Origin: an uncultured Alphaproteobacteria bacterium
Lineage (GTDB): Bacteria; Pseudomonadota; Alphaproteobacteria; UBA7887
Assembly (NCBI GenBank): GCA_902562525.1
Contig: CACETT010000008.1
Span: forward strand, 1-37,550
Reading direction: 5' to 3'
Length of the DNA stretch: 37,550 nt
In this document: positions 18,939-22,784 of the stretch, one piece after another
Layout: every line of letters starts with the position of its first letter
Numbering within the stretch: the stretch's first letter is position 1
Made by a program: the position numbers and the translations under genes
Notes under the pieces: generated by a model
The model's database searches: none
What the model was told of the DNA's origin: nothing
What the model saw: the letters and a program-made list of their open reading frames with translations, nothing else

Positions 18939-19649
18939 CTAACGCCGAAGGTACCAATTGTAGATACCTGAAATCACTAGTAGCAGCAGTACTACTGCCG
19001 CGGCATCCATTACATACGAGCCCCAAGAACCCAAAATGCGGCCACTATGCAAATCCAACAGCACCCGCTCCCAAGGGAGACCACGACCGCGAAACGCCAA
19101 AAGCACCGACTCTTTAACTTCGGGTGGCGCTTCCTGGGTCAACACCCATACCGGTTCCTCAACTGAGGACCTCCACGTTAAAAATCCATCAGAGGAGGCA
19201 AAAGTATCCTCTCCCGAATTGATATAGGTAGTGTCCCTCAAATGCCCAAGGCGACTAATTGTCCCAGCTTTCCAACCGAGCTTCTCAATCAATTGCCCAT
19301 TATCTTCAAAGAGATAGATGCTGTCCGCTGTTCCAACGATTAGAAACCCATCCCCTTGCACCGCCCCCACCAAGGAACCTTTAAAGCTAGGCACATGCAC
19401 CGCATCCAAAAACAAACTGCCATCGACTTCCGTCAGCCAACGGTCACCAACCCGGAAATTGATAGGCGGACTTTCTGGGGCAACACCGTACCAGCTCAAG
19501 AGCCATCCAGTTCCAACAAACCGGCTATCTAAGTTTAATCGCTCGGTATGGTTAAGCGCTATCCCAGTGATGATAAGAATAGTGACTAACAAAGAGGCGC
19601 CTACCCCCAAATGGCCGTGCCAACGAAATATCCAGGGATTAAGATGCAT
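18939..19649 (-). CDS. PepSY-associated transmembrane protein (PepSY_TM-like)
   Basis: This 236-residue inner-membrane protein has one helix near residues 14-33 and a second near 213-233, with a periplasmic domain between. Marks of the PepSY-type family are FRWHGHLGVGASLL followed by ITGIALNHTERL at the first helix, and LDLHSGRILGSWGSYVMDA followed by a hydrophobic run and SGIYNWYLRR at the second. Histidines in WHGHLG, LNHT and DLHSG could bind heme, as proposed for PepSY membrane proteins in flavin-based reductases. It follows the FMN-binding protein by 31 bases and is probably its electron donor or membrane partner. Ferric reduction is inferred from that pairing and from the iron genes nearby. 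Confidence 0.8.
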   Translation of the reverse strand: MHLNPWIFRWHGHLGVGASLLVTILIITGIALNHTERLNLDSRFVGTGWLLSWYGVAPESPPINFRVGDRWLTEVDGSLFLDAVHVPSFKGSLVGAVQGDGFLIVGTADSIYLFEDNGQLIEKLGWKAGTISRLGHLRDTTYINSGEDTFASSDGFLTWRSSVEEPVWVLTQEAPPEVKESVLLAFRGRGLPWERVLLDLHSGRILGSWGSYVMDAAAVVLLLLVISGIYNWYLRR

Positions 19650-19680
19650 TAGCCGATAGCGGCGGTTAAAAACCTTCCAG

Positions 19681-20217
19681 CTACTTATTCTCAGCAGTAA
19701 TCTCCTCGGTTAAATACAGTGCCAAGCGGCCCAACCTTGTCAACGCATCCACCGATAATGTCGCACCCGAGATGCCATCTATGTAGCGGTCTAGCCGATA
19801 GTCCGCATCCACCGTAGCGCCGACAAACTGATCCGTAAAGAATTTGTGTCTGACCTCCCAACCGCGGCTCTCCCGGTAGATCAAAACTGCAACTCGTTCG
19901 ATCTGCCCGCTTTTCACAACATAGCCAGTTGTTATGGGCCTTACCTTACCTATCTCCTCTAATATCCAAGCAGTTCGCGTCGCGTCAGCCCAGTACCTAA
20001 TCCTCCTTGGACCCTTGCCATGGGTCATTATCCTGCTTGTTACGGACTTCCGGTCTTTGGTAATCCACAATACATCTGGATCCGGGAGAGATGACCCAAA
20101 CACCTCAGCCAAAAAGGTGTCTGGCTCCAGATAAACTTCCTCTGCATGCCCCTCTTGAAAAGGACTAACTAGAACAAAAAGAGCACACAAACTTATCGCC
20201 AGCAATGAGTTCTTCAT
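19681..20217 (-). CDS. Exported FMN-binding domain protein (covalently flavinylated)
   Basis: This 178-residue protein has a signal peptide (about residues 1-25, ending GHA) and an FMN_bind-type domain. DGISGAT at 147-153 is the motif at which ApbE attaches FMN through a phosphoester bond, here at Thr153. Such proteins carry electrons outside the cytoplasmic membrane. Between lie VKSGQIERVAVLIYRESRGWEVRH and KFFTDQFVGAT, typical of the fold. It stands between the porin gene and the PepSY-type membrane gene, all on the minus strand. A strong terminator hairpin sits just before its start, so expression depends on read-through or an unseen promoter. No apbE is in the window. Confidence 0.85.
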   Translation of the reverse strand: MKNSLLAISLCALFVLVSPFQEGHAEEVYLEPDTFLAEVFGSSLPDPDVLWITKDRKSVTSRIMTHGKGPRRIRYWADATRTAWILEEIGKVRPITTGYVVKSGQIERVAVLIYRESRGWEVRHKFFTDQFVGATVDADYRLDRYIDGISGATLSVDALTRLGRLALYLTEEITAENK

Positions 20218-20234
20218 AATTGTAACACCATCAC

Positions 20235-20263
20235 AAAAAGGGAGGGGACTTGCGCCCCCTCCC
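20235..20263 (-). terminator. Strong rho-independent terminator or attenuator between porin and FMN-binding genes
   Basis: Read on the minus strand, GGGAGGGG pairs exactly with CCCCTCCC around the eight-base loop GCGCAAGT and is followed at once by TTTTT. It starts 27 bases after the porin stop and ends 17 bases before the next start codon. It should let abundant porin mRNA end while a fraction reads into the two electron-transfer genes. Confidence 0.85.
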
Positions 20264-20290
20264 CATATTGTCTCAGCTGAAGCTCAAAAA

Positions 20291-21499
20291 CTAGAACTGC
20301 CAGCCAATGCCGAGGTTCAGACGGTCGTCATCAGCCGTACTGTTCTCAATGGTTATCTCGTCGTAATCTGCTTTTAAGACCACATCAGGGTGGATCCAAT
20401 AGTTGAACCCAACCGTGAAACCATCCTCTACACTACCAGTACTGTCGCCGGCGGTGCGATCAAAAGCATAGTAGCGGGCAAATATCCCAAGCTCACCGTC
20501 GCCACCGGCACCAGGTACCGCAAAGCGATAGGAAGGTTCTACGAAGTAACCCCACTGCTCATCCCTACCCAACGATGCTGGACCAACACCTGTGGTGCCT
20601 TCATCTAGATCCCAGCGGGCATACATTGCCTTAAGCCCTACGGGACCGCTCCGATAGTCAGCAGTAAAATTAAGGAGAGTGGCGTCGGTGTCAAAATCCC
20701 TGTCAGTACCGGGTTCGGCCGTGCCTTGAGTGATATCGTCCTGATACTGCGCTGCAACTGTTAGGTTAAGCCCTGGAAATCCGGAATACCGGAGACGTCC
20801 GGTGATAGCTGGCCTATTTGCAACAGCCTCGGCAACTTTTTGACGGCCACCCCGTATCGTAAAAGCCGTCTCGTCAACGTTAAGTCCAGAATGAAAGAAG
20901 AGATCGTATCCCAGTCCTTCACTTAGCTCTCCTCGTGAACCCACACCCGCTTCCCACCAAGTGGTAGGAATGATCTGGGAATGGACGCGGTCACGTTCAA
21001 CCCCAAAGAAAGTTGGTGGCTCATGAGTTTCGTTCAACATCCCCACTGGCACCAAAACAACTCCGGCGAAGACCGCGTTGCTAGGCGAGGTATTATATTC
21101 AATGAACGCCTGTTCGAGTTCAACTTCACCAGGCTGACCTTCGCCCGCAAGCGCGTGTTCAAGCTCAAATTCTCCTTGCACCCGCAACTTGTCATTGAAT
21201 TCATATTCAGTGAAAAGCACCCAACGATGGACGTCAATCTGTTGCCTGTCACCAGCGTTGTAATGTACTTCGGCATAGCCGCCCCAAAGAACGTCACCGC
21301 CTCCGTGGCCATGGCCCCCGGAGCCCGCCGACTCTTCTATCATTTCCCCAGTAGTCTCGACCTTCATTTCGAGCTCCTGGATTTTATCCCACATTTCTTC
21401 CGCAGTAGGCGGCTCCGCCAAAACTTGCGAAGATGCAACACAGAGGCCTAGCCCGATAGTGGCCGCCCCCAATACTACATTACTTCCATTATTCTTCAT
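20291..21499 (-). CDS. Outer-membrane porin with N-terminal coiled segment and His-rich linker
   Basis: This 402-residue protein has a signal peptide (about residues 1-28, cut after VLA), a short coiled-coil-like stretch (EEMWDKIQELEMKVE), a glycine/histidine linker (GGHGHGGGD, 61-69), and a beta-barrel of alternating strands ending in the outer-membrane C-terminal signature GIGWQF. It resembles OprO/OprP-like porins without enough detail to name the solute. The ATG at 21499 follows AAAGG at good spacing. A reading from 21562 would begin inside the promoter. Fur-like boxes upstream, and flavin reductase-type genes downstream, suggest an iron- or metal-related solute. The HGH linker could bind metal. 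Confidence 0.8.
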   Translation of the reverse strand: MKNNGSNVVLGAATIGLGLCVASSQVLAEPPTAEEMWDKIQELEMKVETTGEMIEESAGSGGHGHGGGDVLWGGYAEVHYNAGDRQQIDVHRWVLFTEYEFNDKLRVQGEFELEHALAGEGQPGEVELEQAFIEYNTSPSNAVFAGVVLVPVGMLNETHEPPTFFGVERDRVHSQIIPTTWWEAGVGSRGELSEGLGYDLFFHSGLNVDETAFTIRGGRQKVAEAVANRPAITGRLRYSGFPGLNLTVAAQYQDDITQGTAEPGTDRDFDTDATLLNFTADYRSGPVGLKAMYARWDLDEGTTGVGPASLGRDEQWGYFVEPSYRFAVPGAGGDGELGIFARYYAFDRTAGDSTGSVEDGFTVGFNYWIHPDVVLKADYDEITIENSTADDDRLNLGIGWQF

Positions 21500-21533: not shown

Positions 21534-21562
21534 AAGATAATGATTTGCGTTCTCATTCGCAA
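21534..21562 (-). promoter_or_regulatory. Porin promoter overlapped by a Fur-like box
   Basis: On the minus strand TTGCGA (21562-21557) and TATCTT (21539-21534) are 17 bases apart, each matching four of six sigma70 consensus positions. On the plus strand 21536-21554 reads GATAATGATTTGCGTTCTC, matching 14 of 19 positions of the classical Fur box GATAATGATAATCATTATC. The box covers the spacer and -10, the usual place for repression. The porin ATG is 35 bases downstream of the -10. Confidence 0.6.
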
Positions 21563-21654: not shown

Positions 21655-21772
21655 CCAAAGAAATGTGCCCGTTAGTAAGAAGAGGACTAACGGACACGAA
21701 GTCTAAGTAAAGATGAGCAAAGGGCTTGTTTAGGCTGGCGAGAAGGGACTAGCCACCCCTAAACAAGCGATT
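21655..21772 (-). ncRNA. Candidate structured small RNA or porin leader RNA
   Basis: Two strong hairpins lie in the 358-base gap between bfr and the porin. In the first, GCTTGTTTAGG (21724-21734) and CCTAAACAAGC (21758-21768) are exact 11-base complements around a 23-base loop. In the second, arms 21665-21676 and 21686-21697 pair over 12 bases with one mismatch around a nine-base loop, and on the minus strand a weakly T-rich ATTTCTTT follows. A near-consensus minus-strand promoter with an adjacent Fur-like box puts the predicted first base just before the first hairpin. The product would be either a small RNA of about 115 bases or the first part of a 270-base porin leader. No coding frame fits. 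The 3' end is a guess. Confidence 0.45.
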
Positions 21773-21775
21773 CGA

Positions 21776-21820
21776 GTTATAGCTGATTATGCGCCGCATT
21801 GTCAATGCGAATAATTCTCA
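21776..21820 (-). promoter_or_regulatory. Near-consensus sigma70 promoter with adjoining Fur-like box
   Basis: On the minus strand TTGACA (21805-21800) is a perfect -35 and TATAAC (21781-21776) a five-of-six -10, 18 bases apart. Directly upstream, touching the -35, plus-strand TGCGAATAATTCTCA (21806-21820) matches 11 of 14 defined positions of the 7-1-7 Fur box TGATAAT-N-ATTATCA. It lies 37 bases beyond the bfr stop and drives transcription toward the hairpins and the porin. Confidence 0.65.
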
Positions 21821-21857
21821 ATTGCAAAATTCGTCCATTCAGGCAGACCCAGCCCGC

Positions 21858-22331
21858 TTATTCGGTTCCCATATGGTCTTGCAGATAATTCTCCAGACCG
21901 ACAGACTTTATCCTAGACTGTTGGGTCTCTATCCAATCTATGTGCTCCTCCGTGTCTTCAAGAATCTTTTCAAAGATCTCTCTAGACACGAAATCAGCCA
22001 AACCCTCACATATGGTGATAGCTTCCTTCAGACAGCCTTGGTTATCCATTTCAACTGATAGGTCGCAGCGAAAGATTTCCGGCACATCCTCGCCAATTTT
22101 GAGCTTACCCAGATCCTGCAAATTTGGCAGCCCTTCGAGAAGCAAAACTCTTTTTATAATATAATCCGCATGCTTCATTTCCCCGATCGACTCTTCGTAG
22201 ACCTTCTGACCCAACTTTAAAAAGCCCCAATCTTCTAACATCCGAGCGTGAAGAAAATATTGATTAACCGCCGTCAGTTCATTAGTCAAAATGCGGTTCA
22301 ACTGCGCCAGTACTTTCGGTTCACCTTTCAT
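21858..22331 (-). CDS. bfr: Bacterioferritin
   Basis: Bfr forms a 24-subunit heme-containing shell that oxidises and stores iron. The 157-residue length is standard from the ATG at 22331, which GGGGAG precedes at good spacing. A longer reading from 22439 lacks family support. By alignment with E. coli Bfr, ferroxidase ligands Glu18, Glu51, His54, Glu94 and His130 are present, and the heme ligand is Met52 in GEMKHAD. The sixth ferroxidase ligand, Glu127, is replaced by Thr in LEDTEEHIDW. It may therefore work with a second Bfr subunit or have an altered iron site. It is divergent from bfd, whose product helps release its iron. Confidence 0.95.
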   Translation of the reverse strand: MKGEPKVLAQLNRILTNELTAVNQYFLHARMLEDWGFLKLGQKVYEESIGEMKHADYIIKRVLLLEGLPNLQDLGKLKIGEDVPEIFRCDLSVEMDNQGCLKEAITICEGLADFVSREIFEKILEDTEEHIDWIETQQSRIKSVGLENYLQDHMGTE

Positions 22332-22443: not shown

Positions 22444-22511
22444 TAGAAATCATTCTACTGTATGGCTAGATCCCAGTTCAACTTCCAGTTGTGATAACGA
22501 CTCGCATTCGC
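22444..22511. promoter_or_regulatory. Possible iron-regulator sites between divergent bfr and bfd
   Basis: TAGAA-ATCA-TTCTA (22444-22457) is a perfect short palindrome that recalls the TAGAA/TTCTA arms of Irr-type iron control elements, though I cannot confirm the spacing. At 22493-22511 GATAACGACTCGCATTCGC matches about 12 of 19 Fur-box positions. Both lie in the 222-base gap where bfr and bfd promoters must be. Each is weak alone. Confidence 0.35.
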
Positions 22512-22553: not shown

Positions 22554-22784
22554 ATGTATGTATGCAACTGCAATGGCATCTCAGAACGCATGGTGCAAAC
22601 CGCACTTAAGGATGGAGCAAGCACTTGGACCGAAGTGCATGAATATTTTGACTTTTCTCCGTGCTGCGGTAAATGCAGCTCAGAAATGACTAGCACAATT
22701 GCATTGCAGCGTCAGCGGACATCCACTGCCAAGTCGCCACCTCAACCCATCCTGAAGCCGGATCTGTTAGCGAGCGATTGTTAG
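22554..22784 (+). CDS. bfd: Bacterioferritin-associated ferredoxin
   Basis: Bfd is a small [2Fe-2S] protein that docks on bacterioferritin and reduces its stored iron for release. The 76-residue protein has the four cluster cysteines at 4, 6, 38 and 41 (YVCNCNG and PCCGKC), the same positions as in E. coli Bfd. The ATG at 22554 is chosen because GGAGGAAACGGA precedes it. An ATG at 22491 would add 21 residues before the cluster. It is divergent from bfr across 222 bases. The tail beyond residue 50 is polar and longer than in E. coli. The 249 bases after it, up to aroC, hold nothing I can identify. Confidence 0.93.
   Translation: MYVCNCNGISERMVQTALKDGASTWTEVHEYFDFSPCCGKCSSEMTSTIALQRQRTSTAKSPPQPILKPDLLASDC

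Follow-up and report, generated by a model that had tools for sequence, protein, structure and literature searches.

Between the bacterioferritin gene bfr and a porin gene of an uncultivated marine alphaproteobacterium, the minus strand carries a Fur-like box next to a predicted promoter, which raises the question of whether the segment behind it is a small RNA (sRNA) gene, the leader of the porin mRNA or the end of the bfr transcript. The window, i.e. the whole stretch of 37,550 nucleotides that was analysed, is contig C8 of genome G000 (63% complete). Its host replaces the gammaproteobacterial context in which an earlier note on this DNA had considered the locus, and the closest named relatives of the porin come from marine alphaproteobacterial metagenome bins (SAT1449, MarineAlpha9_Bin6 and Bin7). 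On the minus strand, bfr is followed by the sRNA unit, the porin, an FMN-binding protein and a PepSY protein, and the flanking genes are the following:

21861 to 22331 (stop codon at 21858-21860), minus strand: bfr, bacterioferritin, the same-strand upstream neighbour (NCBIfam TIGR00754 equivalog at 227.9 bits, over the cut-off; Pfam Ferritin)
20294 to 21499, minus strand: outer-membrane porin, the downstream neighbour (Pfam Porin_O_P / Porin_4)
22554 to 22781, plus strand: bfd, divergent from bfr (Pfam Fer2_BFD)

Positions 21769-21657 of the minus strand very probably form an independent gene for a non-coding RNA of about 113 nt that would be repressed by Fur, assisted by Hfq and active by pairing with mRNAs, in the manner of RyhB, PrrF and NrrF. 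The anatomy, the conservation, the terminator, the rank of the Fur box and the presence of the regulators (fur at C6:16551-16910 of G000, hfq in both G000 and its same-genus relative G001) are observed in the sequence. Specifically, the RNA is laid out as follows:

21657 to 21769, minus strand: predicted non-coding sRNA of about 113 nt, starting at 21769 +/- 2 and ending at the T-rich tail (from the promoter position, the fold and the G001 orthologue)
21724 to 21768, minus strand: hairpin 1, with an 11-bp outer stem, an inner stem and the C/U-rich apical loop UCCCUU (invariant between the two species; unpaired-probability profile)
21707 to 21723, minus strand: single-stranded linker CCUUUGCUCAUCUUUAC, the candidate seed (100% conserved, with mostly near-1 unpaired probability in both species)
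21707 to 21768, minus strand: 62-nt invariant core, made of hairpin 1 and the linker (62/62 identical in G001)
21657 to 21697, minus strand: intrinsic terminator with a 12-bp stem, a 9-nt loop and the tail ATTTCTTT (TTTTGTTT in G001); all 12 pairs are kept in G001

Folded as a 115-nt minus-strand RNA, the sRNA reaches -43.2 kcal/mol (z = -7.1), a stability that none of 200 shuffled sequences attained, and its G001 counterpart has z = -7.8; the opposite strand folds more weakly. Hairpin 1 has the 11 perfect pairs that had been described before and an inner stem in addition, and its UCCCUU loop is unpaired and invariant in both species; together, the linker and the loop appear to follow the usual layout of a seed. 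The conserved core contains no ATG, its only GTG frame runs for 8 codons, and no frame is conserved. Hairpin 2, the stem-loop of the terminator itself (21697-21665, minus strand), retains the 12-base stem attributed to it by the earlier note, although the mismatch placed there is in fact a U-G pair, and the T-rich tail ATTTCTTT behind it, which had been overlooked, gives it the form of a terminator. A terminator scan missed this hairpin because its loop limit was 8 and the loop has 9 nucleotides.

An orthologue of the sRNA lies between bfr and the porin gene of G001, in the same order and on the same strand. Identity between the two genomes is 84% for bfr, 83% for the porin, 69% for the bfr-bfd intergenic region, 72% for the region between the sRNA and the porin, 50% for the gap from bfr to the Fur box and 39% for the promoter spacer, and the chance of a 62/62 identical core is about 1e-9 to 1e-10 at the intergenic rates and 2e-5 at the rate of bfr. 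With zero base differences, hairpin 1 offers no covarying pair, and its pairing is predicted by folding. In hairpin 2, five bases are changed while 12 of 12 pairs and the T-rich tail are kept, with one two-sided pair change (U-A to C-G) and three one-sided changes that each involve a U-G pair. Because the pairs and the tail are kept despite these changes, hairpin 2 is taken as a minus-strand intrinsic terminator, and the U-G pairs, which are A-C mismatches on the other strand, suggest that transcription runs along the minus strand. The uncompensated drift of the hairpin arms, which the earlier note had set against a structured RNA, is not what the one relative, G001, displays. As the covariation comes from two genomes only, too few for a shuffle test to become significant, the case rests on the combined pattern and not on covariation alone.

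Upstream of the predicted start, the Fur-like box touching TTGACA and the TATAAC 18 bases beyond it were both found where they had been described:

21804 to 21825, minus strand: predicted Fur box, containing GAGAATTATTCGCATT and abutting the -35 (Fur matrix rank; 20 bases identical in G001)
21800 to 21805, minus strand: -35 hexamer TTGACA (identical in G001)
21776 to 21781, minus strand: -10 hexamer TATAAC, 18 bases past the -35 (identical in G001)

The 18-base spacing is the same in G001 even though the spacer has diverged to 39% identity, and the window contains a single match to the pattern TTGACA-N15-19-TATAA, where chance predicts 0.07; a generic promoter scan missed this promoter on account of the C as the last -10 base. 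The Fur matrix was made from 12 boxes that precede relatives of the porin in other families of Alphaproteobacteria and were picked by resemblance to the classical Fur consensus, and since the window was not used in making it, its ranking is an independent test. Scanned over 0.81 Mb of G000 and 0.78 Mb of G001, a part of each genome, it returned the sRNA box as the top-scoring site in both. The next four sites of G001 all fall within the bfd-bfr-sRNA-porin island, and the second-ranked site of G000 precedes a gene for an imelysin (Peptidase_M75; L150:11050-12261, G000:C20), a family that is often iron-regulated. Moreover, in G015 a near-identical 29-bp Fur box stands before an ABC permease gene. 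The other predicted regulatory elements of the island are the following:

22493 to 22511, plus strand: Fur box before bfd (Fur matrix rank 11 in G000 and 4 in G001)
21534 to 21562, minus strand: predicted promoter of the porin itself, TTGCGA-N17-TATCTT (same arrangement in G001, L002)
21536 to 21554, minus strand: Fur box overlapping the porin promoter (the porin-promoter Fur sites rank 6 and 7 in G000, 2 and 3 in G001)

The porin is probably Fur-regulated, and its relatives in other alphaproteobacterial families also carry upstream Fur boxes.

The earlier note had preferred a Fur-controlled sRNA over a long regulated porin leader and had credited the porin with a promoter of its own. Such a predicted promoter is present, overlapped by a Fur box and kept in G001, and it bears directly on the leader, in which hairpin 1 and the linker would form a riboswitch-like sensor and hairpin 2 a regulated terminator under Fur control. 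The anatomy of a riboswitch would likewise combine an invariant 5' domain with a covarying terminator, and the element precedes the porin on the same strand and in the same order in both species. Still, a leader appears unlikely: both species have the separate, predicted porin promoter with its overlapping Fur boxes, no Rfam riboswitch is matched, the element is absent upstream of the porin in other family members, and pairing between the 5' arm of the terminator and the upstream RNA is equalled in 381/500 and 243/500 shuffles. As the porin has its own predicted promoter and no antiterminator pairing exceeds chance, an independent sRNA is the simpler reading, for which the G001 orthologue, the Fur-matrix ranking and the preserved terminator stem also speak.

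Instead of pairing with mRNAs, an sRNA under Fur control could also bind a protein or soak up another RNA as a sponge, which is improbable too, if marginally less so than the leader. No protein partner can be named, and a conserved linker and a C-rich loop, both exposed, are what base-pairing RNAs typically display; the conservation of even the stem of hairpin 1, which goes beyond the needs of seed pairing and would suit such a role, comes from a comparison of two species only, with genes about 84% identical, and the lack of an mRNA target among the searches described below is the other point in its favour. The least probable reading by far is that there is no gene, and that the terminator and 3' UTR of the bfr transcript lie next to a chance promoter match. 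The segment does follow bfr directly on the same strand, but the promoter, its spacing and the Fur box are conserved against 50% identity of the gap and 39% of the spacer, no other Fur site scores higher in either sampled genome, and hairpin 1 has no U-tract.

The distribution of the predicted sRNA is narrow, as is usual for Fur-repressed iron-responsive sRNAs. No Rfam family, RyhB included, reaches its gathering score anywhere in the window; under a permissive scan, mmgR/suhB (RF00519) scored 15.4 bits where the cut-off is 41, which is chance level, and its match near the terminator falls in sequence that G001 does not conserve. A covariance model, run on the 9 genomes of the order and on 385 from the class, gave matches in this genus only, two weak matches outside it being discarded as chance, as they lie in apparent coding sequence without a Fur box or promoter. 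The same model found no match at the porin loci of relatives, no such sRNA unit was seen in the region after bfr in G003, and the exact core pattern is absent from public genome and viral contig collections.

The predicted RNA shares its control logic with RyhB (E. coli), PrrF1/2 (Pseudomonas), NrrF (Neisseria), HrrF (Haemophilus) and BrrF (Burkholderia), which are about 70-160 nt long. Like them, it would be a stand-alone RNA that has stem-loops, an exposed seed region, a Rho-independent terminator and a sigma-70-type promoter with a Fur box, in a genome that encodes Hfq, on which many of the Gram-negative RNAs of this class depend, and it differs from them in being alphaproteobacterial, in lying between bfr and a porin and in having no Rfam match. 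FsrA (Bacillus) and IsrR (Staphylococcus) are Fur-repressed iron-sparing RNAs whose C-rich single-stranded stretches block ribosome-binding sites; the UCCCUU apical loop resembles these stretches, and no homology is claimed. Within the class, RusT of Caulobacter crescentus is an iron-starvation sRNA of 118 nt with a terminator hairpin and bound by Hfq, which is located between lolA and xth and is under NtrYX, not Fur (PMC11005374). The predicted RNA is likewise alphaproteobacterial, of similar length and terminator-ended, with a predicted Fur box at its promoter. No Fur box was found upstream of the iron-induced sRNAs of Caulobacter (PMC6120978), and the missing Fur-box sRNA in Alphaproteobacteria has been remarked upon in Caulobacter studies (PMC6120978, PMC3751524).

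No report of a Fur-box sRNA in Alphaproteobacteria was found in the searchable, non-subscription literature, a scope that does not prove priority. The iron-saving RNA switch as a kind is already known from other bacteria; that the present sRNA is the first RyhB-like RNA of the Alphaproteobacteria under direct repression by Fur, specific to its lineage and set within a bfd-bfr-porin iron island, stands at about even chances. If true, the class would have neither lost nor bypassed the Fur-sRNA switch, but would invent it locally. With such an RNA, preceded by a Fur box and closed by a terminator, the Fur-sRNA question in the class becomes testable in a marine lineage, in a setting where iron is often limiting.

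As for its function, we infer transcription, repression by Fur, binding of Hfq, trans-acting targets and iron sparing along the following lines. Iron-loaded Fur on the box abutting the -35 would block RNA polymerase; upon a drop in iron, Fur would leave and the sigma-70-type promoter would fire, with transcription ending at hairpin 2. The resulting RNA would begin with hairpin 1 and expose the invariant unpaired linker and the C/U-rich loop, which, together with Hfq, would most likely pair with the ribosome-binding regions of mRNAs and so lower the output of iron-using or envelope proteins that the cell can spare. Iron sparing by the RNA is plausible, and, given that it is an sRNA, it is somewhat more likely than not that iron-using proteins are among its targets.

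Target searches gave no signal, so that the likeness to RyhB is claimed at the level of the control logic. At 301 orthologous gene starts, 36 of 100 shuffled linkers and 12 of 100 shuffled loops did as well as the real seed; seed searches of both genomes returned 3 non-self matches for the linker against 6 for controls, and 24 matches for the loop (self included) against 43. Complementarity at the bfr, bfd and porin starts (G000 starts and bfd) is no better than for shuffled seeds, which leaves bfr, put forward by the earlier note, unsupported as a target, and sdhC is missing from the 63%-complete assembly. A match to the complement of the loop, with at most 3 mismatches in 16, is seen in both species near base 1500 of L176 and L177; the site coincides with the ribosome-binding site of an ABC permease for branched-chain amino acids, which was set aside as a target as the match is not above chance.

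Lastly, some observations concern the neighbouring genes. The bfr gene has no match in 6 of the 9 genomes of the order, and G003, a family member, has two bacterioferritin-like genes in tandem (G003:C145:10818-11791, L015/L016). Upstream of the porin match of an uncultured relative (L055), at a distance of about 140-190 bases, there is a near-perfect long inverted repeat, GCGTGTGAGACCGATTCGCGTTGCGGATCGGTCTCACACGC. In the window, the genes for the porin, the FMN-binding protein and the PepSY-TM protein stand in tandem downstream of Fur boxes (18939-21499, minus strand), a row that looks like a Fur-regulated operon for iron reduction or uptake.
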